In this document: positions 538 through 55,252 of the stretch, one piece after another | Numbering within the stretch: the stretch's first letter is position 1 | How the letters are laid out: each line of letters opens with the position of its first letter | Source: Chloroflexota bacterium | Lineage (GTDB): Bacteria; Chloroflexota; UBA11872 | NCBI GenBank assembly: GCA_026707285.1 | Contig: JAPOXD010000007.1 | Coordinates: 1-64,000, forward strand | Direction of reading: 5' to 3' | DNA: 64,000 nucleotides | Made by a program: the position numbers and the translations under genes | Notes under the pieces: generated by a model | The model's input: the letters and a program-made list of their open reading frames with translations, nothing else | Database searches by the model: none | What the model was told of the DNA's origin: nothing

Positions 538-804
538 ATGGCCCAGCTGAATGTACGGCTCGACGCCGAGCAACGACGGCGGCTGGAGGAGCTTGCCGCC
601 GCGAAGGCCAAGTCAATCTCCGAAATCGTGCGTGGCCTGATCGACGACGCTTACGAGGACATCCGGCGGGAGCGTCGGCGACAGGCCGTCGAGCGATTGA
701 TCAGGCTGGAAGTCGAGGACCCGCCGGACGCGGCAACCCTCTCGCGCGAGTTGGAGGCGGCCGACCCAATCGGACTCGAGCTGACGACCTCCGCAAAGCC
801 ATAA
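538..804 (+). CDS. Second ribbon-helix-helix antitoxin-like protein
   Basis: MAQLNVRLDAEQRRRLEELAAAKAKSISEIVRGLIDDAYEDIRRERR, RHH/CopG-like. Start could also be GTG at 532. Confidence 0.6.
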   Translation: MAQLNVRLDAEQRRRLEELAAAKAKSISEIVRGLIDDAYEDIRRERRRQAVERLIRLEVEDPPDAATLSRELEAADPIGLELTTSAKP

Positions 805-878
805 GGCGCCCGTCTTCCAGGTTCTCCCTGGCGGCGCCATCCTGCTTCTCGTGGATCGCTGGACCGAGCTCACGGCGA

Positions 879-1157: not shown

Positions 1158-1732
1158 TGCGCCGCGCCGACGCTCAAAACCCCCATCGGTCCTGGCGTCC
1201 CGGTCGGCCCGCCCATCGCGGAGCGTCGTCCGCAACTCGCGGATATCGGCGGCGTGGTGGGCCGCATGCGCCCGCCAGTCCGCCTCGGCGGACTCCCACA
1301 GCCTGCGAATCCCCCCGCGCACGTCACGCCAGGCACCACGATGAGGGCCGCGAGCGCGACGCCGACCGTGAGCATGGCCACCAGCAGCGAAACGAGGTCC
1401 GCCTTCACGCGACGGCATTCCGGCGAGCGACGCCCTGCTTCTGGCTGGCCGATACACCGTACCCTTCAATCAGGCTGAGTACTGCCCACGCCAGTCCGCG
1501 ACGTCTGCGACGAGATTTGCGGCGGGATGTAGCTGGTCGGGCGGCAGTAATGTAGGACTGTGAACTCTGTAGCCATCCGCCACCTTCGATCTCGGCAACC
1601 ATAATCAAGGCCGTGGTTGCGCGATTCATGGCCTCGCCTGTCCCGTGCAACGCGCCCTCTGTATCTCCAATCCAGGCCGGATAATATGGGGCTTGACGGT
1701 TTGAGTTCCGATCCGCAACGGAGCGTGACGTC

Positions 1733-2794
1733 ATGGCTGACTACCAGAACCTGAAGAGCCGTATCGACCAGGGTGAGGTGATCCTCCTGGACGGGGCCAT
1801 CGGAACCGAGCTGCAGTCCATGGGCGTGCCCATGGACCCCGCCGCGTGGTGCGGCCCCGGCAACTACACGCACCCGGCCACCGTGCGACAGATGCACGAA
1901 CGCTACATCCGGGCGGGGGCCGACATCATCACCACCAATACGTTCAACACCCTGCGCCCCGCGCTGGAGGCGTCCGGCTACAGCGAGTTGGTCCGGGAAG
2001 TCAACGTGCGCGCGGTGGACGCGGCTCTCGAAGCCATCGATCGGTCCGCCGGCGACCGGCCCGTCTACATCGCCGGTTCCATCTCGTGCCGCATCCCAAT
2101 CCGGGACCGTAGGACCGGGACGCTGTTGGGCGGCACGGGCTACGGCTATGGCGCCAGCCTTTCGGCGGAAGAACTGAGCGCTCACGCCAAAGAGCAGGCG
2201 AACATCCTGGCGGAGTCCGGCGTGGATTTCTTTCTGATCGAGAATCTGTGGGCCGACAACGAGTCCAGGGCGATAGCCGCCGAAGCGGCCAAGGCCACGG
2301 GCCTGCCGGTTTGGGTGGCCTTTACGGCCTCCGTGTCATCTGACGATCAGGCGGTCCGGATGAGTTTCGGCGAGGACCGCGCCTACAGCACCGGCCTAGG
2401 TATGCCCATGTGGACGTCGACTTGGCGAACGGTCGACGACGACATGAGCCTGGCCCAAGGCATCGACGAGATTGCGGCTCTCGGTCCCGACGTCCTTGGA
2501 ATCTTTCACAGCCGGATTGACGAAACCGCGGCGGCCCTGCAGGTCATGCTCGACCGGTGGTCCGGGCCCGTCGTCGTCTATCCGGACGCCGGCCGGGAAG
2601 ACTATCTGGAGACCTGGCAGGACGCCAGCGTGGCCAACGAACAGACGGTGGCGGAGTTGACGCAGGAGGCGGCCACCTGGGTCGAAATGGGCGCCCAGAT
2701 CATTGGCACCTGCTGCGGTTTCGGCGCCAACTACACCAAGGCGCTGCGGGGCGTCCTGCCGGACCGGATCGCCTCGCCGCGAAACGGCGCGTAA
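1733..2794 (+). CDS. Homocysteine S-methyltransferase family protein (betaine-homocysteine methyltransferase-like)
   Basis: N-terminal LLDGAIGTELQSMGVPMD and C-terminal IIGTCCGFGANYTKAL zinc-site motif. Confidence 0.85.
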   Translation: MADYQNLKSRIDQGEVILLDGAIGTELQSMGVPMDPAAWCGPGNYTHPATVRQMHERYIRAGADIITTNTFNTLRPALEASGYSELVREVNVRAVDAALEAIDRSAGDRPVYIAGSISCRIPIRDRRTGTLLGGTGYGYGASLSAEELSAHAKEQANILAESGVDFFLIENLWADNESRAIAAEAAKATGLPVWVAFTASVSSDDQAVRMSFGEDRAYSTGLGMPMWTSTWRTVDDDMSLAQGIDEIAALGPDVLGIFHSRIDETAAALQVMLDRWSGPVVVYPDAGREDYLETWQDASVANEQTVAELTQEAATWVEMGAQIIGTCCGFGANYTKALRGVLPDRIASPRNGA

Positions 2795-2875
2795 GCCAGA
2801 GACATCCAAGCACCTCTGAGCTAGAGCAGACGTCCGGATCGACGGGAGGGACTTCAGCTGGATTCGAAACCGCTG

Positions 2876-4387
2876 GTGGTTGTCGGGGCTGGGGCGGCGG
2901 GCACGGCCGCCGCTATCGAGGCGGCCCGAGCCGGAGTCCAGGTCACACTCGTCGACGAGAACCCCATTGGCGCTTCCATGATGGCGCTGGACGTCCCGCA
3001 GTTCTTCGGCCGACGGGCCATCGACCCGCTCCCCGCCAGGGATGAAATGCTGGAGCGAGTTGCCGCGGCCAACTCCGCGCTGGCGGAAGCCGAGGAAGCC
3101 GGGGTCGAGGTTCAGCTTGGAACCAGCGTCTGGGGCGCCTTCCGAAATTCGGACACGAGCAGGGTCCTCGACGGCCCGCAGCTCGGGCTGGCCGACGCCG
3201 AGCGGTCGTGGATGGTCAAGTACGACCGGCTCATCGTGGCCGCCGGCGCCCGGGACCTGGCGATGTCCTTTCCCGGGTCGGGGATGGCGGGCGTCATGGG
3301 CGCCAACGGCGCGCACGCGCTGATGCGTCGCTACCGGACGTTGACCTCGCGGCGCATGGTGGTCCTGGGATCCGGTGACCTGGGCCTCAACACCGCGGCG
3401 ATGGCGCAGGACAGTGGCGTCGAGGTAGCCGCCGTCGTGGACGTCTCACCCTCCGTGCGCGGCGACGAGGTCCTCATGTCGCGGTTGAGGGCCACGGGCG
3501 TTGAGCTATGCATGTCCCACACGGTCAAGGAAGCCGTCGGCAGCGCCGGCGAGATCGAATCCGTCGTGCTGGTCGAGATCGACGACTGCCAGCCGGTTGC
3601 CGGCACCGAGAAGGTCATTGCCGCCGACGCCGTCTGCCTCGCCATTGGCCTGGTTCCCAACGTCGAGCTTCTTGGTCTCCTGGGGTGCGACCTCGCCTTT
3701 GCGTCCGAGCGCGGCGGTTGGGCGCCGGTCCACGACGACCGGATGCGGACCAGCGTCGACGCCGTGTTCGTCGCCGGGGACGCCGCCGGCTTCCACGATG
3801 GAATGGTCCTGGACGCCGAGATTGCACGAAACCAGGGCCGCCTGGCCGGACTCGCCGCCGCCGAGTCGCTCGGCGCTATCGACAGGGACGAAACGCTCGC
3901 CCGAAGAAGCGAGCTCCAAGCCGCGGCCGTCGATGCAACGTCAGCCGATGGGCACTCGGCCTGGCAGCGATGGCATCGATCCCTCGTCAACGCCGGTGGG
4001 ATGAATGTCTTCGCGTGCCCATGCGAGGAGGTCACGCGCGCCGAGATCATCGGCTTGCAGCCGCCGCGCTATCTAGGCCTGGGCTCGGAGCAGGCGAGCC
4101 GTCGCAGCTTGCGGACCCAAGCGAGGAATAACCCGGTCAACGCCGATCAGGTCAAGCGCCTGACACGGGCCGGAATGGGCCACTGCCAGGGCCGGCTGTG
4201 CCGTGAGCAGGTGTCGCTGCTGCTCGCCGAGGAGTCCGGCGCCGACATCGCCGACATACCCGTCATGTCCTACCGGCCGCCGGTGCGGCCGCTCCCGCTC
4301 AGGGTCATGTGGCCCCACGACGAGCCGGAGCAGGTGCGCAGCGAGTGGCCCAAGTGGTTCAGCCCCACGCATCGGGTGCTGGGATAG
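2876..4387 (+). CDS. FAD/NAD(P)-dependent oxidoreductase with BFD-like [2Fe-2S] C-terminus (HcnB/opine-oxidase alpha-like)
   Basis: VVVGAGAAGTAAAIEAARAG FAD motif; CPCEEVTRAEIIG...GMGHCQGRLC cysteine motif. Start codon uncertain. Confidence 0.8.
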   Translation: MVVGAGAAGTAAAIEAARAGVQVTLVDENPIGASMMALDVPQFFGRRAIDPLPARDEMLERVAAANSALAEAEEAGVEVQLGTSVWGAFRNSDTSRVLDGPQLGLADAERSWMVKYDRLIVAAGARDLAMSFPGSGMAGVMGANGAHALMRRYRTLTSRRMVVLGSGDLGLNTAAMAQDSGVEVAAVVDVSPSVRGDEVLMSRLRATGVELCMSHTVKEAVGSAGEIESVVLVEIDDCQPVAGTEKVIAADAVCLAIGLVPNVELLGLLGCDLAFASERGGWAPVHDDRMRTSVDAVFVAGDAAGFHDGMVLDAEIARNQGRLAGLAAAESLGAIDRDETLARRSELQAAAVDATSADGHSAWQRWHRSLVNAGGMNVFACPCEEVTRAEIIGLQPPRYLGLGSEQASRRSLRTQARNNPVNADQVKRLTRAGMGHCQGRLCREQVSLLLAEESGADIADIPVMSYRPPVRPLPLRVMWPHDEPEQVRSEWPKWFSPTHRVLG

Positions 4388-4394
4388 GCGGCGC

Positions 4395-5555
4395 ATGGAC
4401 AGCGCGGACGTAGTCGTCATCGGGGCTGGGGTTTCGGGCCTCAGCTCGGCCTATCGCCTGGCCAAGGCGGGCCGGGACGTCGTCGTCGTCGACAAGGGGA
4501 TCGTCGGGGGCGAGGCGTCCGGGCGAAACGGCGGAATGGTCAGCGAGCGGGTCGACGAGCCGGCGCTGATTCCGCTGGCCGTGGAAGCCACCAGGACCTG
4601 GGAGACGCTGGCCGATGAGCTGGGCTATCCCACCGAGTTCGTCCAGCAGGGGCGGCTCCAGGTCGCCGTGACGGAGGAGGAGATGGGCGCCCTCCACTCC
4701 GAACGGGACAACGCGCTACGCCACGGCCTGCACGCGGAAATGGTCGATCCCCCGGAGATTCGGGACATGATTCCCGGCATCACCGAAAGGACGCTCGGCG
4801 GGCTCTTTTTCAGCAAGGGCGGTCACGCCAACACCCAGCTGGCGGTCCAGGCGTTCGCCTGGGCACTTCAAGACCTGGGCGGACGGCTCTATCAGAACAC
4901 GGCCGTCACGGGCTTCCAGGTCGTTGGCGACAGGGTGACGGCGGTGGAGACGACCGCCGGCCCAATCGCCGCCGACATGGTCGTCGCCGCCGCCGGACCC
5001 CAGACCGGGCTGATGGCGGGGCTGGTGGGCGTGCACATTCCCGTGGCCCCGGCAAGGGTCGAGATTCTGGCGACCGCCCCCATTGAGCCGCTCACCAGCA
5101 TCGCCCTGGTGGGGAACGGCCTCTACGGACACCAGGCCGTGCGGGGAAACCTGATCTTCGGCGGAGGCGCCCACGAATGGGCCGACGTGGACCTCACCAC
5201 CACGCCCGGCAAGCCCAACACGCCGCTCATCAGGAGCATCGCCAGGCGCCTCGCGGAGCTGCTGCCGGAAGTGGCCGACGTGCCGGTCATTCGAAGCTGG
5301 GCCGGGGTGGTGGAACAGGCACCGGACTATATGCCGATCATCGACATCCTGGACTCCCCCAGCAACTACGTGGTCGTCACCGCCTCGGCCCACGGCTTTG
5401 GCATCTCCCCAGCCACGGGCAAGGTCGTCAGCGACCTGGTCCTCTACGGCGAAACGAACATCGACATCGGCGGCCTAGGTCTGGGACGCTTCGCCAACGT
5501 CAGTCCCAACTGGCGCCACCAACGCGGCTGGATTCCGGCTCCAAACCGGTCCTGA
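4395..5555 (+). CDS. FAD-dependent oxidoreductase, DAO/glycine-sarcosine oxidase-like (HcnC-like)
   Basis: MDSADVVVIGAGVSGLSSAYRLAKAGRDVVVVDKG; C-terminal SAHGFGISPATGKVVSDLVLYGE typical of DAO family. 7-bp gap from the upstream gene. Confidence 0.85.
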   Translation: MDSADVVVIGAGVSGLSSAYRLAKAGRDVVVVDKGIVGGEASGRNGGMVSERVDEPALIPLAVEATRTWETLADELGYPTEFVQQGRLQVAVTEEEMGALHSERDNALRHGLHAEMVDPPEIRDMIPGITERTLGGLFFSKGGHANTQLAVQAFAWALQDLGGRLYQNTAVTGFQVVGDRVTAVETTAGPIAADMVVAAAGPQTGLMAGLVGVHIPVAPARVEILATAPIEPLTSIALVGNGLYGHQAVRGNLIFGGGAHEWADVDLTTTPGKPNTPLIRSIARRLAELLPEVADVPVIRSWAGVVEQAPDYMPIIDILDSPSNYVVVTASAHGFGISPATGKVVSDLVLYGETNIDIGGLGLGRFANVSPNWRHQRGWIPAPNRS

Positions 5556-5607
5556 CCGGTGCGACTGCCATCGCGGCGCGGTAAACGGTGGTGGGTGATT
5601 TTGGTTC

Positions 5608-5714: not shown

Positions 5715-8700
5715 CTACCGAATTCTGGAGACCCACTCACCAATTGATACGCCTGATTCCCACACCTCGCCCGGCACTTCATATCTGAGAGCGGACTCGT
5801 TGCGGACGGCTATTGACCTCGTCCTCGCAGCTTCAACTAGAGAATATGTTCCTTCAACTCTTGAGCCTATATCAGGGACGATCTTGGCTAAGGGCTCTAC
5901 GATGGACGCGGACCATTCACTCGTCAAGTCTTCGATCTTGAAGGAGCGAAGATCAACTACGCAGAGCACGTAGTTATCGGGTTCTTTACTTGCCGTCTCC
6001 GCTTGCAGAGGTGTGAGACGGGCCTGTCCTGTGGTCGTAGCCTTAACCTCAAGCAGGTATGGGCCAACCGAAAACCTTTGCGATGCATCGTCTAGAACGT
6101 TATCTGTCGGTGACGTGACTTTGTAATCGACCCCGTGATCTACAAGCTCCAGATTCAGGCTGTAGGCTTCCATTGCTGACTTGATTGCTTCTTGTACACC
6201 AACGCCCATGCACCTGAAACGGTGGATGTCCCGCTCTTGACACTTTCGCGCCTCTACTTCCTCTGCTAACGACGAATATAGCTCAAGGTCGGCTCCGCCA
6301 GATTCAACCAATCTGGCTAAACCATTCCGCAATTCCTCGCGTCGTTCGGTGTCCGGTTCAATGCCCAGCAGTCGTAACTCCAGCCGGTCAAACTCAAACC
6401 AGTCACTCAACAGCCTGATTGCGGCGTCGTTGTGTTCCAACCATCCTGGATCCAAGAGCTCATCGAGGGTCTTTGCGTTTGCAAGCATTGGCATGGGCTT
6501 GCCATCTTCGTCAGGTATCGGCACCCATGGTCGGATTCTCAGGTCGGCTAGCCATAGTGCGCCCGCGACTGGAACGTCCGTAGGTTCACCTGCCCTCCTA
6601 CCTCTCACGATTTGCTCCCTCTGCCATGCGGAATCATGTGGCGCCACATGGCACAAGACCAGGCCAAGCAACGCGCGCGCCTCGTTAAATCCCTCTCGGC
6701 ACCGATTCAGAACCTCAGGCTGGAGCAATGCGATCTGACTGAACACTTCGTTGTTGCTCGGGACCGTGAGTCCGTTGGTATCAATCGAACTGAGTTCTTC
6801 CAAACGGCGTGGTGTCAAAGCGGACGGTATGTCGGCGCAGATTGGGTCTGCGATTGCAATGCCCCATGCGATCAGCGCTGAAACACAGTCGGGCAAGTCT
6901 TTGGCGGGGGAGCCCGAATACATCTCGTCCAAGACCCGGTCGGGTGGATACGCGCTTGCGAATGGCTGAGCAGCCTTATGCCAACATCGAATAGGGGCCA
7001 TCATCATACGCGCTCGGCTCCAGCGAACCGCAGTCTTGCCGTGGGTGATGAGCGGTATTTGGCTGGCCGTCGAACGGGCCTGACTCTGACTAGATTCCCA
7101 GAGGTATGACAATAGCCTTACAGTTCCTTGCTGTATTTCAGGAGGCTTATCTTCGCATCGCTCGTCTTCAGGAAGCGAGTTAGCCAGAGACTCCACTGCT
7201 TTCTGAATGACGTCATCCTCCGACATGATATTCGGCAGCGCGTTTTCAAGAGCGTAGTGAAGGTGGGGCAGCCCATGCTCAGCAACAGTTTCGTCAAACC
7301 CAGCAAGAAGAAGCTGGCTGCGAATGTCGAGACCGATATCGGCGCAAATGTTCTTTAGCGAAACTGGTATACCGTTGTCGCGGTTCAAGTCTGACGGCGA
7401 ACGAAGGCGTTGATTCTGGTCTGGAAGCATGCCGTGAAGCACCGTTGGGTCTACCCCAGAACGCTTCCGCCAACACTCACCGGTAACATCCAAGAAATGC
7501 GCCATCCATTGCTTGACATCCCCATCAACCATTAGGTCTTCAAGCTTACCTGATTCTCCTTTGACCCAATCGGGAATCTCTTTGACGCTGATGCGATTGA
7601 GTGATAAGCCCAGGCTGTCCCATCCGTTCGCTATATCACTCCAGGCTAAAGCGAGTTCTTTCCTAGGAGGGAATAATTCGGATGCCGCCTCAAGAAGGGG
7701 CCACATGCGATCCACGGTTGTCTCATCGTCGGACGATTCAGTCAGAAGTCTTGGGGCAATGAAGTCGGCAAAAGCACCGTCCTCTGCAATCGCGGGCAAC
7801 ATGCTTGATGAACAATCGACGATGGGCAATTTGGCAACTCGCCCTGCAAATGACGCGAGTTGCTCGTGCCACCAGTCCCTTTCGGCGGCACTTGCAGTAT
7901 CGAAGCCCCTTGTAGGAGCATACGCCTGCGCAAGGAGATGTGCGTCTATCCATTCCTGGTCAAATGCGTGCTTGACCGCGACTACGGCCGCGGAAAGGGC
8001 GTCTTCAACTAGGCTCTTATCTCCGTCGTCCAAAAGCAGTCTACTACGGTCTTGGTCCGGCTTAAACTTGCCGTCGAGTATGAAGTTTGTCGGAATGAAC
8101 CCTGATCCACTCAGGGGGTATTCCCGGTAAACCCGAGGAGCGTTCCCATTCGGTGGAACGACCCTCCACCCTTTTTCGGTATGTTCCGTTAGCACGAGAG
8201 CCGAAGCCGGACCATGTTCGCTGCTCTTGAATCGAAAGACACGAATCTCAGGTCGATGAGTACCATTCTGGAGGATTTGAATGGAACGTTCTTCAACATA
8301 GCCGTCTTCCAAGGCTTGCGCAGTCACCTCGGTAGGCGTCCAGACCTCTCCGTCGTCTTTCCTATTTCGCAGTTCAGCGCAGCCAAGCACTGGCCGGGTA
8401 GCATAGAGATAGGGCAACGCGGACCTAAGCGATTCGACCCCCAAAGTGAGCGGATTGTCGTCGTGAATGTGATAGTCGAACGTTGCTGATGGGACGCCAT
8501 CCAAGTTCGACACTCGGCTTGCCGATCGGATGGCTTCCCTGCAAGCTGCCATGTTCTCCAGGATTGCGTCTTCGTCACCTCCACGATCCAACAGCAGGCC
8601 AAATCGTTCGGACCCGTCGGGAGTATCGAGTAGTCCGCGTAGGGTTGTGCGCTCAGCAAGGACGTGTGTGACAAGGAAACCCGTACCGAAGCGACCGGTC

Positions 8701-9014
8701 GTCTGTTCGGATTCGAAATGCTTATTGGATCCACCGGAAAGCAACGCGGTCAGGTCGCTGGATGTGAATGGGACACCGTCATGCTCGAATGAGACTTTCG
8801 CCTGCTCGGAACTCAGGCGAATCGCTACAGATTTGCTGCCAGCACGAGGGCCGAAGTCGAGCGCGTTCTGCAGCAATTCAAACGGCCAACGAAGTCCGGC
8901 TGACGCAACGCTTTTGCGAGCCTCTTCCACCTGCGATCGAATGCGCCTGGCTTGGTAGCGGCTCTGTTGATCTCTGAAGGTCTCTTCGAATAGCTTAAAT
9001 GCGGCTTCGCTCAA
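5715..9014 (-). CDS. Large GHKL/HSP90-type ATPase (sacsin-like N-terminus) with C-terminal DUF3883-like nuclease domain; candidate defence protein
   Basis: ELLQNALD N-box, DGVPF, GRFGTGFLV GHKL motifs; C-terminal YLLEVKATTTGQARLTPLQAETA...YVLCVVDL resembles DUF3883/PD-(D/E)xK. Visibly lower GC than flanks. Confidence 0.75.
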   Translation of the reverse strand: MSEAAFKLFEETFRDQQSRYQARRIRSQVEEARKSVASAGLRWPFELLQNALDFGPRAGSKSVAIRLSSEQAKVSFEHDGVPFTSSDLTALLSGGSNKHFESEQTTGRFGTGFLVTHVLAERTTLRGLLDTPDGSERFGLLLDRGGDEDAILENMAACREAIRSASRVSNLDGVPSATFDYHIHDDNPLTLGVESLRSALPYLYATRPVLGCAELRNRKDDGEVWTPTEVTAQALEDGYVEERSIQILQNGTHRPEIRVFRFKSSEHGPASALVLTEHTEKGWRVVPPNGNAPRVYREYPLSGSGFIPTNFILDGKFKPDQDRSRLLLDDGDKSLVEDALSAAVVAVKHAFDQEWIDAHLLAQAYAPTRGFDTASAAERDWWHEQLASFAGRVAKLPIVDCSSSMLPAIAEDGAFADFIAPRLLTESSDDETTVDRMWPLLEAASELFPPRKELALAWSDIANGWDSLGLSLNRISVKEIPDWVKGESGKLEDLMVDGDVKQWMAHFLDVTGECWRKRSGVDPTVLHGMLPDQNQRLRSPSDLNRDNGIPVSLKNICADIGLDIRSQLLLAGFDETVAEHGLPHLHYALENALPNIMSEDDVIQKAVESLANSLPEDERCEDKPPEIQQGTVRLLSYLWESSQSQARSTASQIPLITHGKTAVRWSRARMMMAPIRCWHKAAQPFASAYPPDRVLDEMYSGSPAKDLPDCVSALIAWGIAIADPICADIPSALTPRRLEELSSIDTNGLTVPSNNEVFSQIALLQPEVLNRCREGFNEARALLGLVLCHVAPHDSAWQREQIVRGRRAGEPTDVPVAGALWLADLRIRPWVPIPDEDGKPMPMLANAKTLDELLDPGWLEHNDAAIRLLSDWFEFDRLELRLLGIEPDTERREELRNGLARLVESGGADLELYSSLAEEVEARKCQERDIHRFRCMGVGVQEAIKSAMEAYSLNLELVDHGVDYKVTSPTDNVLDDASQRFSVGPYLLEVKATTTGQARLTPLQAETASKEPDNYVLCVVDLRSFKIEDLTSEWSASIVEPLAKIVPDIGSRVEGTYSLVEAARTRSIAVRNESALRYEVPGEVWESGVSIGEWVSRIR

Positions 9015-9465
9015 TCGCCTAACTCCATGCTAGTCCTGTTCGGCTTAGGATGACGACCGTAGACTCGTGGGAGTGGTCGCCCTACCCTCAAATGGCCCCG
9101 GCGCGGGAAGGGGACTAGGTTGGGAAGCGTCACACTGTCACCTCCTGCTCGAAGTGGGCGTGAGGCTCAAGGGTGTCGGGACTGCGGGGGGTAGCGCCAA
9201 ATGCGCCATGCAGATGTTCTGGGCCGTGAGGATGGATAGAATATCATTTGCGACGCAGCTAATGGCAATAGCTTCACGATCACCGTCGCCAGCCAAGCGA
9301 TGAAGCGGCCTGGGAAGCGCCGGGGAATCGAGGCAATCAGACGATCGAGCCGTGCCGGATGCTATAGGATTCCGTCAAACCAACCGTCGCAACGTCTGGC
9401 GGCATCAGGTTCCGCACCACCGGGGAGAGTCGCCGGGGAGTTGGCGCTGAACGGCTCGGCACATG

Positions 9466-9541
9466 TGGTGGACCGATTCGGACTCGAACCAAAGAGCGCC
9501 TCAATGCCATTGAGGCGCTCTTTCAGCTGATCTATGGGCCG
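9466..9541 (-). pseudogene. Degenerate tRNA-Ala copy
   Basis: Aligns along its length to the intact tRNA-Ala(GGC) at 10202-10277 with substitutions in several arms; variable/T-stem region replaced so a long hairpin supplants the cloverleaf. Confidence 0.8.
9491..9523. repeat. Perfect 16-bp inverted repeat, 1-nt spacer
   Basis: aaagagcgcctcaatg-c-cattgaggcgctcttt inside the degenerate tRNA-Ala. Confidence 0.95.
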
Positions 9542-9638
9542 TGGGGCCGAGATTATCTCTCGCTGTCAGGCACAGCGGCGACATCGCTATCCGTGTCCTG
9601 GCGACGGCCTCGTTGACGGCCAGCGTGGTACGTGTTAG

Positions 9639-10103
9639 CTAGCGAGAATCCGCGTCCGGGCAGATCACCATGTGGGAGCCGTCGGCGTTGGAGTGCACCG
9701 CGTGGGACGTGCCCGCCCGGTCGAAGATTAGCTTGTAGCCCGGAGTAATGACCTGGGCGTAGGCGTATCCCTCCTGCGGGCAACCGAGGCTGGCGTCCGA
9801 CCAGTCCATGGCTTCGGAACTGATGGGCGTGTAGTCACCCTCGCCCACCTCTTGCTCCAAGAGCCGCCGCGCCGCGGCCTCGATCTCGCTCAGTGCTTCT
9901 CCGGTTGTGGGCTCGTCGGCGGTCGGCGTGGGCGCATCGGATGAGGGAGCGGCTGCGTACGGCGCGGTGGGCGATGCGACCGGTTCCGTCTTCGTCATGT
10001 CATCGGCGCCGTCACAAGCCACCGCGACCATGAGTGCAGCCGCCGTCGCAAGCAGCAACAAGAACCGGACGGTCGTCAGTCTCAAGAGTCTCATCAGGCC
10101 CAT
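9639..10103 (-). CDS. Putative lipoprotein
   Basis: MGLMRLLRLTTVRFLLLLATAAALMVAVACDG lipobox. The longer ORF start at 10289 reads through the tRNA-Ala, so an internal start is chosen. Confidence 0.6.
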   Translation of the reverse strand: MGLMRLLRLTTVRFLLLLATAAALMVAVACDGADDMTKTEPVASPTAPYAAAPSSDAPTPTADEPTTGEALSEIEAAARRLLEQEVGEGDYTPISSEAMDWSDASLGCPQEGYAYAQVITPGYKLIFDRAGTSHAVHSNADGSHMVICPDADSR

Positions 10104-10201
10104 TCGGAGGCCGAGGCGGCGGATTGAACCTCGCGGCGCACCGTTCCAGGCAACACCGCCAGCTCGCATATCAAAGGAAAGGCTCTTGATTTCATCCGGT
10201 G

Positions 10202-10277
10202 TGGTGGACCCAGTCGGACTCGAACCGACGACCTCCTCAATGCCATTGAGGCGCTCTTCCAACTGAGCTATGGGCCC
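10202..10277 (-). tRNA. tRNA-Ala (anticodon GGC), CCA encoded
   Basis: Cloverleaf: GGGCCCA/TGGGTCC acceptor, CCTCA-ATGGCAT-TGAGG anticodon arm, GGTTCGAGTCC T arm, ACCA 3' end. Confidence 0.9.
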
Positions 10278-10288
10278 CGGGGCCGACA

Positions 10289-10936
10289 TTATGCCCCGCT
10301 GGCGGGCGGGGCGTCGGAGTCTGACAGGCCGAACATGGCGCGAGCGGCGTCGTAAGCCGCGCGGGTGTTCAGGTTGAGCAGGACGTGCGGGTAAGTGGTC
10401 GGCGCGTCGCGCAGGCGGTCGGCGTGGCGGCGGACCACAGCGCGGGGGCCTTCGGTGGCGTCGTCCACGGCGGCCAGCTCGGCGCGCAGATCGCCGGGAA
10501 AGATGACGGGGTGTCCGTGCTTTCCCTCGTGGAGCGGCCGCACAATGTCGCCGGGTGCCGCGCGCCAGCCGGCGACCAGGTCGGCCAGGGCGTCCGGATG
10601 CAGCGGCTGGTCGACGCTGACCAGCAGGACGCCATCGCAGTCCTCGGGTAGCGCGCGGGCGGCGCGGGCGACCGACGTGGCCCTGCCCTGCGCGTAGTCT
10701 GGGTTGTGCACCGTGCGCGCCCTAAGGCCGTTCAGCGCCGCCCGCACGTCCTCGGCGCGATGGCCGGTGACGACGATCACCTCAGCCACCTCATCCAGGG
10801 ACGCCAGCGTCCGCACCTGGTGCGCCACCAGCGTGAGGTCGCCCCACGGGATCAGCGGCTTGGGCGAGCCGAAGCGCTCGGAGCGACCGGCGGCCAGCAC
10901 CACCGCGCAGAGCTTGGGCGCGGGCGGGGCGGCTAT
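10289..10936 (-). CDS. MobA/MocA-like NTP transferase
   Basis: KLCAVVLAAGRSERFGSPKPLIPWGDLTLV nucleotidyltransferase motif. 5' end approximate; the longer ORF is spurious upstream. Confidence 0.75.
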   Translation of the reverse strand: MAAPPAPKLCAVVLAAGRSERFGSPKPLIPWGDLTLVAHQVRTLASLDEVAEVIVVTGHRAEDVRAALNGLRARTVHNPDYAQGRATSVARAARALPEDCDGVLLVSVDQPLHPDALADLVAGWRAAPGDIVRPLHEGKHGHPVIFPGDLRAELAAVDDATEGPRAVVRRHADRLRDAPTTYPHVLLNLNTRAAYDAARAMFGLSDSDAPPASGA

Positions 10937-51844: not shown

Positions 51845-51921
51845 GGGCGCGTAGCTCAGCTGGTTAGAGCGCCACGTTGACATCGTGGAGGTCAGAGGTT
51901 CGAGTCCCCTCGCGCCCACCA
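51845..51921 (+). tRNA. tRNA-Val (anticodon GAC), copy 1
   Basis: GGGCGCG/CGCGCCC acceptor, CCACG-TTGACAT-CGTGG anticodon arm, TTCGAGT T loop, encoded CCA. Confidence 0.93.
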
Positions 51922-52019: not shown

Positions 52020-53084
52020 ATGGCCAATGCCGCACGAATTGGAAAAGTCCAAACTGTCCTGGGCTTGATATGCGGCGACGAGCTGGGCATTACCTTGCCT
52101 CACGAACACCTGCTCGTCGATCTGTCCTGCGCCTTTGCGCTGCCCGCCGCGGCGAGCCAGCGAGGGCGGGCCTACGAGCCGGTCGGCATCGAGAATCTGG
52201 GCTGGTTGCGCTATCACTCCTTCGAGAATCTGGACAACCTGCGCCTGCTGGACGAGCGCGAAGCCATCGACGAAGCCCTGCTCTTCAAAATGGCGGGCGG
52301 TAAGAGCATCGTCGACTGCACCATCAACGGCGTCGGCCGCGACCCGGAAGGCCTGGCGCGGATCGCCCGCTCCACGGGGCTCAACATCATCATGGGATCC
52401 GGCTATTACACGGCCCCGAGTCATCCCCCCGAGCTTGCCGCGAAGAGCGAGGATGAGGTCTTTGCGGAGATCGTCCGGGACATCGAAATCGGCGTCGGCG
52501 ACAGCGGCGTCAAGGCCGGCATCGTCGGCGAGATCGGCTGCTCCTGGCCGCTGGAGGACAACGAGCGCAAGGTGCTGCGCGCCGCCGCCCGGGCGCAGCA
52601 GCACACCGGCGCATGCCTCAGCATTCATCCGGGCCGCAACCGCGCCGCACCCTTCGAAATCGTGGAAATCGTCTCCGCCGCCGGCGCCGATCTGAGCCGC
52701 GTCATCATGTGCCATATCGACGTCCGCCTACGCACTCCCGAGGAGCGCCTGCGACTGGCGCGGACCGGGTGCTACCTCGAATACGACGTCTTCGGTTGGG
52801 AGGGCCACTTCCCCTCCTACTGGACCGCCGACGATTACATGGATATCCCCAACGACACCCAGCGCATCTACGAGATCCTGGCGCTGATGGAGGCGGGCCA
52901 CCTCGAGCAGATCCTGGTTTCACAGGACATTTGCCGCAAGTCGACGCGGGTTCGCTACGGTGGCTGGGGCTTTCCCCACATCTTGAACTATGTGGTGCCG
53001 ATGATGCGGCAACGAGGCTTCGACCAACAGCAGATCGACACCATCCTGATCGAGAATCCGAAGCGCATTCTCGGCTTTGTTTGA
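52020..53084 (+). CDS. Phosphotriesterase-related amidohydrolase
   Basis: TVLGLICGDELGITLPHEHLLVDLS; DCTINGVGRDPEGLARIA...MCHIDVRL...VSQDICRKSTRVRYGGWGF. Confidence 0.87.
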   Translation: MANAARIGKVQTVLGLICGDELGITLPHEHLLVDLSCAFALPAAASQRGRAYEPVGIENLGWLRYHSFENLDNLRLLDEREAIDEALLFKMAGGKSIVDCTINGVGRDPEGLARIARSTGLNIIMGSGYYTAPSHPPELAAKSEDEVFAEIVRDIEIGVGDSGVKAGIVGEIGCSWPLEDNERKVLRAAARAQQHTGACLSIHPGRNRAAPFEIVEIVSAAGADLSRVIMCHIDVRLRTPEERLRLARTGCYLEYDVFGWEGHFPSYWTADDYMDIPNDTQRIYEILALMEAGHLEQILVSQDICRKSTRVRYGGWGFPHILNYVVPMMRQRGFDQQQIDTILIENPKRILGFV

Positions 53085-53099: not shown

Positions 53100-53176
53100 G
53101 GGCGCGTAGCTCAGCTGGTTAGAGCGCCACGTTGACATCGTGGAGGTCAGAGGTTCGAGTCCCCTCGCGCCCACCA
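53100..53176 (+). tRNA. tRNA-Val (anticodon GAC), copy 2, identical to copy 1
   Basis: Same 77-nt sequence as 51845-51921, starting 15 nt after the phosphotriesterase-like stop codon. Confidence 0.93.
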
Positions 53177-53464: not shown

Positions 53465-53800
53465 GTGTCAGACGAGCCACCGATGAGTGATGTGAAGACG
53501 CCGGCCCAGACACAGGGAGAGGGAAGGGTGGCGAGCCCGCGCCGCCCACGTGAAGAGACGGCACGTCTCGGCAAGGTGTTGTACGAGCGGGACATTCGTC
53601 CGCGGGTCGAAGCCGACCACCACGGGGAGATCGTCGCCATCGACGTGGACAGCGGAAGCTGGGTCGTCGCCGAAGGCGAGATTGCCGCGGTGGATCGCCT
53701 GCGGGAAATGCGACCGAGCGCCGTGAATGTCTTGTGTGAGCGTGTCGGCTACCGCACGCTTCGCAGCTTTGGTGCAGGGTCCCGGCGGGGCGCCGGGTGA
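53465..53800 (+). CDS. Conserved hypothetical protein paired with aspartyl protease
   Basis: LGKVLYERDIRPRVEADHHGEIVAIDVDSGSWVVAEGEIAAVDRLREMRPSAVNVLCERVGYRTL; overlaps start of next ORF. Confidence 0.6.
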   Translation: MSDEPPMSDVKTPAQTQGEGRVASPRRPREETARLGKVLYERDIRPRVEADHHGEIVAIDVDSGSWVVAEGEIAAVDRLREMRPSAVNVLCERVGYRTLRSFGAGSRRGAG

Positions 53801-54168
53801 TCGAGGGTGTGGTAAACGACGCCCATGAAGCGGTCGTGACCCTTTCCCTGCAAGGCCCCGACGGGCAGGCTCAGGACATTGAGGCGGTCATAGACACCGG
53901 CTACAGCGGCTTCCTGACCGTGCCGACCACGTTGGCGAAGGAACTCGATCTACCCTTCGCCTATATAGGCTGGGCGCTGCTGGCCAACGATGCTGAAGTG
54001 GCTTTCGACGTCCACGACGTCACGGTTTTGTGGGATGGCCGACCAAGACATGTCAAGGCCGATGCCGCCGGCAGCACTTCGCTCGTGGGCATGCTGCTGC
54101 TCGATAGGCACAACGTGAGCATCGAAGTCGAGCGCGGGGGCCGAGTCCTGATTGAGGCCAGGGAATAG
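53797..54168 (+). CDS. Clan AA aspartic (retroviral-type) protease-like protein
   Basis: AVIDTGYSGFLTVPTTLAKELDLP...STSLVGMLLLDRHNVSIEVERGG. Confidence 0.75.
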   Translation: MIEGVVNDAHEAVVTLSLQGPDGQAQDIEAVIDTGYSGFLTVPTTLAKELDLPFAYIGWALLANDAEVAFDVHDVTVLWDGRPRHVKADAAGSTSLVGMLLLDRHNVSIEVERGGRVLIEARE

Positions 54169-54360
54169 CCCGGCGGCGAGCCGGAACCGACGCAGTCGAT
54201 CAATGCTGCACAGAGGACTTGGGGAAGTGAACGGCCTGGATTTGTCGGTTCGAAAGGTCAGGTCGCAGACGTACGAGTTGGCCAATGGGCGAGGGCGTCT
54301 GCCTGAGCGAATCGAGAGCCTTCGATTTGATACTCGTGCCCGGGCTTTTGGCGAACGCTG

Positions 54361-55111: not shown

Positions 55112-55168
55112 GCTGGTGAAACCGCCACGTTGACATCGTGGTGATCAGAGGGTTGGAGTCACCGCGCG
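55112..55168 (+). pseudogene. Degenerate tRNA-Val(GAC) remnant
   Basis: gctggtgaaaccgccacgttgacatcgtggtgatcagagggttggagtcaccgcgcg aligns to D-loop through T-arm of the tRNA-Val copies; anticodon arm ccacgttgacatcgtgg is identical. Confidence 0.8.
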
Positions 55169-55252
55169 TTCCCCATGACGTGGTGAACGGCGGCCCCGGC
55201 CACTCGATCCGACCGCGGCGGCGTCCAGGGGGGCTATCCGGACAAGGGCATC

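Follow-up and report, generated by a model that had tools for sequence, protein, structure and literature searches.

A probable additive insertion hotspot at a tRNA-Ala(GGC) gene in a Chloroflexota bacterium, with small defence cassettes set among tRNA copies

Additive islands bounded by tRNA genes are a known kind of genomic element (PMC10872708, PMC3146451). In Dehalococcoides, which belongs to the same phylum as the organism studied here, ssrA islands target the tmRNA gene and are marked by a 20-bp repeat, and about half of them carry an integration module (PMC3146451). In Methylophilaceae, additive islands occur at tRNA-Lys, where the repeat consists of the final 20 bp of the tRNA and the cargo is mostly of unassigned function (PMC10872708). 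Tycheposons, as summarised in the latter work, are elements of 4-200 kb with a tyrosine recombinase (PMC10872708).

The window analysed in this study is a stretch of 64,000 nucleotides on contig C11 of draft genome G000 (3.2 Mb). We consider it probable that its tRNA-Ala(GGC) gene is an additive insertion hotspot, at which small cassettes entered repeatedly and left tRNA copies behind. Like the Dehalococcoides ssrA islands (PMC3146451), the insertions are arranged in tandem behind an RNA gene and are delimited by direct repeats of its 3' end. In those islands the 3' end of a large serine recombinase overlaps the attachment site, and we found the same at tRNA-Val of one congener (G002) and tRNA-Ile of another (G005), although not at the window locus. 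Here, however, the targets are tRNA genes, the repeats are 68-110 bp long, and the cassettes have one to a few genes and lack an integration module. Serial insertion at one tRNA, repeated tRNA pieces and sizes that vary from hundreds of bases upward are shared with the Methylophilaceae islands (PMC10872708), whereas the copies in our genomes are near-full or full-length and the cargo is largely defence.

Tycheposons, too, carry cargo, sit at tRNA genes and remodel islands (PMC10872708). Unlike tycheposons as described there, the window cassettes have no recombinase and the lipoprotein cassette is smaller than 1 kb; no tyrosine recombinase, the hallmark in that description, was found in the cassettes at these loci in G000, G002, G005 and G018. 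Integrative mobilizable elements, which have tyrosine or serine integrases, likewise insert at tRNA genes, restore the tRNA and bring defence cargo, as does an McrBC element in G002, but the window cassettes carry neither integrase nor mobilization genes, and an integrase of the element's own beside the tRNA was represented only by a remnant in G001. Of the features expected of additive islands, flanking of the cargo on either side by a direct repeat of the RNA gene was found for the lipoprotein segment and not for the Tiamat segment, and atypical composition in the Tiamat segment and not in the lipoprotein segment. Variable content and empty sites were both found, the pristine empty Ala(GGC) site being in a different genus. 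What is distinct here is the combination of near-full to full-length repeats that include the promoter, tiny cassettes without integrases, the involvement of several tRNAs and a strong defence content. A literature search on sponge or SAR202 tRNA islands returned nothing specific.

Anatomy of the tRNA-Ala(GGC) locus

The earlier note had described an intact tRNA-Ala(GGC) gene and a degenerate copy of it on the same strand, and ARAGORN called both with identical coordinates (Table 1). Rfam accepted the intact gene (10205-10277, 65.8 bits) and rejected the copy at 9466; the two disagree at 10 of the 76 positions of the tRNA. The repeat is longer than the tRNA, with 108 bp aligned at 84.3% identity, and the ~30 bp upstream that it includes correspond, at the intact copy, to the end of the MobA-like gene and the tRNA promoter region. 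The degenerate copy scored 105 bits, against a best of 32.6 bits for the same query among 300 Markov-generated copies of the window, and the 108-bp direct repeat is well above chance expectation. The third tRNA-Ala copy (51 bits, 83%) lies on the same strand 9.4 kb downstream. It sits past the conserved sarcosine-oxidase-like block, and its position there suggests that this block is possibly an old insertion itself.

The hairpin in the anticodon arm of the degenerate copy has a predicted dG of -33.2, compared with -21.0 for shuffles (z -4.1). It is not seen in the corresponding copies of G001 and G002. All three mismatches of the original quasi-palindrome are repaired, which resembles a templated quasi-palindrome mutation. 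The hairpin might serve as a terminator separating the lipoprotein gene from the Tiamat gene.

Table 1 Features of the tRNA-Ala(GGC) and tRNA-Val(GAC) loci in the window
Feature	Coordinates	Strand	Basis or remark
tRNA-Ala(GGC) copy, outermost, partial (tRNA positions 17-71)	763..819	-	alignment
Far flank conserved in genus: methyltransferase, sarcosine-oxidase/DAO-like genes	1733..5555	+	congener comparison; conserved region 1655-5570
Tiamat-type (TmtA) gene, sacsin-like ATPase domain, low GC, second cargo	5715..9014	-	PADLOC, domain match, GC
Distal direct-repeat copy, degenerate	9464..9571	-	alignment
tRNA-Ala copy, full-length, degenerate; anticodon arm a perfect 15-bp hairpin	9466..9541	-	ARAGORN
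154-aa lipoprotein, first-cassette cargo	9639..10103	-	no Pfam/PADLOC match; same site in G001, G002 (two copies), G005
Proximal 108-bp direct-repeat copy: tRNA and ~30 bp upstream, overlapping mobA stop region	10200..10307	-	alignment
tRNA-Ala(GGC), intact, insertion target	10202..10277	-	ARAGORN, Rfam; found in all congeners
MobA-like nucleotidyltransferase, fixed flank upstream of tRNA	10289..10927	-	adjoins tRNA-Ala(GGC) in both genera
tRNA-Val(GAC), first copy	51845..51921	+	ARAGORN
Phosphotriesterase-family cargo gene at tRNA-Val	52020..53084	+	domain match
tRNA-Val(GAC), second full-length copy	53100..53176	+	ARAGORN, census
SDR cargo gene, second tRNA-Val segment	54361..55110	+	domain match
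tRNA-Val third copy, 3'-partial (positions 15-77, 81%)	55112..55175	+	census

The gene between the intact and degenerate tRNAs is, as had been proposed from the sequence, an open frame with a signal/lipobox-like N-terminus, and it has homologues in relatives. Pfam and PADLOC profile searches gave no match for it, an NCBIfam match was weak and far under the cut-off, and the viral contigs searched held no relatives. Its structure prediction, from two sequences, was poor (pLDDT 50.5). Homologues also occur elsewhere in the phylum. One of them, in another family of the order (G019, L064), has 52% identity and lies ~166 bp downstream of tRNA-Val(TAC), where a second tRNA copy was sought and not found.

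The large gene beyond the degenerate copy is real, and the atypical composition that had been noted for it was confirmed (54-56% GC, compared with ~70% for the window). Its product matches PADLOC TmtA (Tiamat) at 4e-83. Both marks of the Tiamat family are present, an N-terminal ATPase domain of the sacsin-type/HSP90-like kind and an overall profile match, the best-matching stretch being residues 11-578 of 1099. The gene is missing at the tRNA-Ala(GGC) site in all five congeners. The idea that both cargo genes are bounded by tRNA-Ala copies holds for the lipoprotein and fails for the Tiamat gene, which is variable but has no copy at its far edge: a search at the conserved flank (~5570) found none, the next copy being the outermost one. 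When the far junction was compared among congeners, homology stopped soon past the DAO stop codon and no common motif was found.

Content of the site in relatives and recurrence at other tRNAs

We compared the locus with 18 relatives, among them the five congeners G001-G005 and some genomes from a second genus in the same family; all are draft genomes, and the named ones come from metagenomes. tRNA-Ala(GGC) is kept in all congeners, with mobA directly upstream in both genera. The DNA between this tRNA and the next conserved genes is unlike in every congener and consists mostly of anti-phage defence genes. The lipoprotein and the degenerate tRNA were expected to be variably present, and they are: both occur in G000, G001 and G002, the lipoprotein alone in G005, and neither in G003 or G004.

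Where G000 has the lipoprotein, the degenerate tRNA and Tiamat, G001 has the lipoprotein, a second tRNA copy, a TIR-type effector, a recombinase remnant, a restriction-type endonuclease (REase_II) and an unassigned gene. In G002, the array is split across two contigs: mobA, the tRNA, the lipoprotein and a tRNA copy are followed by the contig gap, then by a leucine-rich-repeat gene, a 68-bp 3' tRNA copy, a second lipoprotein and another tRNA copy, and finally by a DUF4268 nuclease (PDC-S11), yet another tRNA copy and an unassigned gene before the flank. G003 and G004 lack the lipoprotein and a distal tRNA copy, and hold other cargo instead of a pristine empty site: a cytosine (C5-) methylase, Vsr, a UvrD-like protein, a HATPase endonuclease and an AspBHI-like endonuclease in the former, and one endonuclease (REase) in the latter. 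G005 has the lipoprotein, a 525-bp flank copy and two AAA ATPases. This copy reproduces the terminal part of the DAO-like flank gene with 89% identity and lies beside the lipoprotein, with the ATPases between the copies (L057). The two-ATPase operon type of G005 is also found at tRNA-Ala(GGC) in G014 and G007, with 65% DNA identity.

Within the second genus, the site is empty in G016, where a core gene begins ~97 bp after the tRNA start. Comparison of G018 with G014 reveals a 4.18-kb restriction-modification cassette between two intact tRNA-Ala copies, with a 106-bp repeat made of 27 bp upstream, the entire tRNA and 4 bp beyond; two methyltransferases are among its defence matches. Across the genomes compared, the tRNA-Ala loci thus show neither conserved synteny nor a lack of empty sites, the outcome that would have spoken against variable insertion.

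The earlier note had also supposed that the layout was unlikely to be a one-off, and a census bore this out. Extra copies were present at four of the ~50 tRNA genes of G000, namely Ala(GGC), Val(GAC), Ala(CGC) and Arg(TCG), after we set aside weak isoacceptor cross-matches, neighbouring tRNA-Ser genes and a 24-bp match distant from tRNA-Ala(TGC). Among the 54 tRNAs of G018, from the second genus, three loci have them. Every extra copy in the census of these two genomes is downstream of its tRNA and on the same strand. A clean case is Ala(CGC), which is single-copy (an empty site) in G001, G003 and G004; relative to G001, the insertions in G000, G002 and G005 have three different cargos and, in every case, a repeat of 75-87 bp. 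A Rosmerta system is the cargo in G000. In G018, an array of five tRNA-Ala(CGC)-type copies (L185:4024-14984) spans ~11 kb and includes restriction genes, an antitoxin and a metabolic operon. One copy in this array has its anticodon changed to TGC and is still called a tRNA by ARAGORN.

The likeness that had been drawn to the tRNA-Val locus of the window is sound for the anatomy. It does not extend to variability, as the phosphotriesterase cassette at tRNA-Val is nearly fixed, occurring in five of six congeners and missing in G001. Between the second tRNA-Val copy and the SDR gene, two small overlapping genes at 53480-54200 (+) encode a 111-aa protein and then a retroviral-type aspartic-protease-like protein. 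Homologues of these genes adjoin a lipoprotein homologue in G010 (L062) and, in G014 (L202), are separated from a tRNA-Ala(TGC)-type copy by a few hundred bases.

The defence assignments are profile matches, with E-values of 9e-35 and 2e-91 for Rosmerta (RmrT/RmrA) alongside that for Tiamat; a control set of ten flank genes yielded no strong defence match. Judging from family membership, the benefit of the cargo would be phage defence. Both families were already known, and only their place in tRNA-bounded cassettes is noteworthy.

Possible recombinases and alternative origins

The cassettes, of one to a few genes and mostly without integrases, probably insert into the 3' portion of the tRNA gene. 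Each would bring a partial to full-length tRNA copy, leaving a working tRNA gene in the proximal position and displacing the older copy downstream, where it would decay. The lipoprotein would thereby come to lie between tRNA copies and the Tiamat gene in the next segment out. Joining may be carried out by a site-specific recombinase that acts in trans or has since been lost. The likeliest candidates are tRNA-targeting tyrosine integrases, which adjoin other tRNAs in G000, and large serine recombinases, which occur in congeners and of which a remnant is present at tRNA-Ala(GGC) in G001.

No intact integrase was found in the cassettes examined, including those at Ala(GGC) in every genome examined, and a profile search of G000 found no serine recombinase. 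Integrase-bearing elements nonetheless use the same kinds of sites as the integrase-less cassettes. In G000, tyrosine integrases lie directly downstream of tRNA-Thr(GGT), tRNA-Arg(TCT) and tRNA-Leu(GAG). The tRNA-Arg(TCT) integrase unit is repeated on contig C45, 91% identical and starting at a 68-bp tRNA copy (positions 8-75), the same footprint as that of the 68-bp hybrid tRNA-Ala(GGC) copy of G002 (positions 9-76). The two tyrosine-integrase units (C14, L138; C45, L141) have the appearance of a tandem or duplicated element. The large serine recombinases (L150, L151, L153) have C-termini that are an antisense reading of tRNA-Val in G002 and tRNA-Ile in G005, and the element at tRNA-Val in G002 carries a replication-relaxation protein in addition to McrBC. 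The remnant in G001 consists of the last 115 recombinase residues, 70% identical to an intact serine recombinase of G002. Most simply read, the window cassettes would be integrase-less derivatives or passengers of integrase-bearing elements.

The alternative that survives best is homologous recombination, in which tRNA-flanked cassettes, as fragments or circles, join the resident tRNA via the shared 75-110 bp. This would explain the lack of integrases in the cassettes and why the repeats are often a whole tRNA with upstream sequence, exceeding most site-specific cores. The repeat edges can be taken either way: across loci, the 5' edge varies from about -30 to +30 and the 3' edge is constant near CCA, and while this pattern would suit homologous recombination, it is the usual mark of tRNA-targeting integrases. 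Furthermore, the same genome holds integrase-bearing elements with the near-full-length 68-bp footprint, and ~100 bp of homology is short for RecA-dependent recombination. We regard this mechanism as possible but doubtful.

It is quite improbable that the locus is the eroded remains of a single large, ancient island or prophage at tRNA-Ala, with the tRNA copies as internal modules. The outermost partial copy does enclose the entire 9.4 kb, and the serine-recombinase remnant in G001 would be in keeping with such an origin. However, the contents are unrelated among congeners and include defence systems without a shared backbone, and G002 has successive nested units that differ in decay. A tandem tRNA duplication followed by decay, with the lipoprotein as an old resident gene trapped between the copies, accords with the similar divergence of the lipoprotein unit and the flanks among congeners and with the homologues elsewhere in the phylum, but we rejected it as highly improbable because the clean insertions at Ala(CGC) and in G018, between otherwise collinear flanks, are of new rather than duplicated DNA, two congeners lack both the lipoprotein and the copy, and the pattern recurs at several unrelated tRNAs.

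The age of the lipoprotein cassette bears on the hotspot reading itself. Among congeners, the lipoprotein units diverge by 12-19% and the flanks by 9-15% (81-88% and 85-91% identity), and by this measure the cassette is no recent arrival. Four of the six species may have inherited it from their ancestor, with its loss or replacement in the other two. Against the preferred reading, such divergence also fits a single old acquisition inherited vertically. The two lipoprotein units of G002 are 85% identical to each other, below most of the congeners' flank identity, which fits either a separate arrival or an old duplication. Trees of the two flanks of the locus disagree, and this discordance suggests recombination there.

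Implications for the spread of defence genes

A bolder possibility is that tRNA genes serve as an integron-like platform, on which integrase-less cassettes of one gene or one operon, each with a full-length tRNA copy of its own at the end, would be captured and stacked in ordered arrays at several tRNAs, mobilized in trans and expressed by read-through from the tRNA promoter. Of the cargo units, 15 of 19 have the orientation of their tRNA, in a hand count of units that are not fully independent. We consider the platform as a whole unlikely.

From the perspective of genome evolution, the clean cases at Ala(CGC) and in G018 open the mechanism of additive insertion to direct testing. If the hotspot reading is correct, surplus degenerate tRNA copies would offer an inexpensive way to find new defence genes and to tell in what order they arrived, and searches based on integrases would miss such cassettes. 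Small defence systems would then be able to spread in minimal cassettes that lack any visible mobility gene, for which the tRNA copy is the sole handle.
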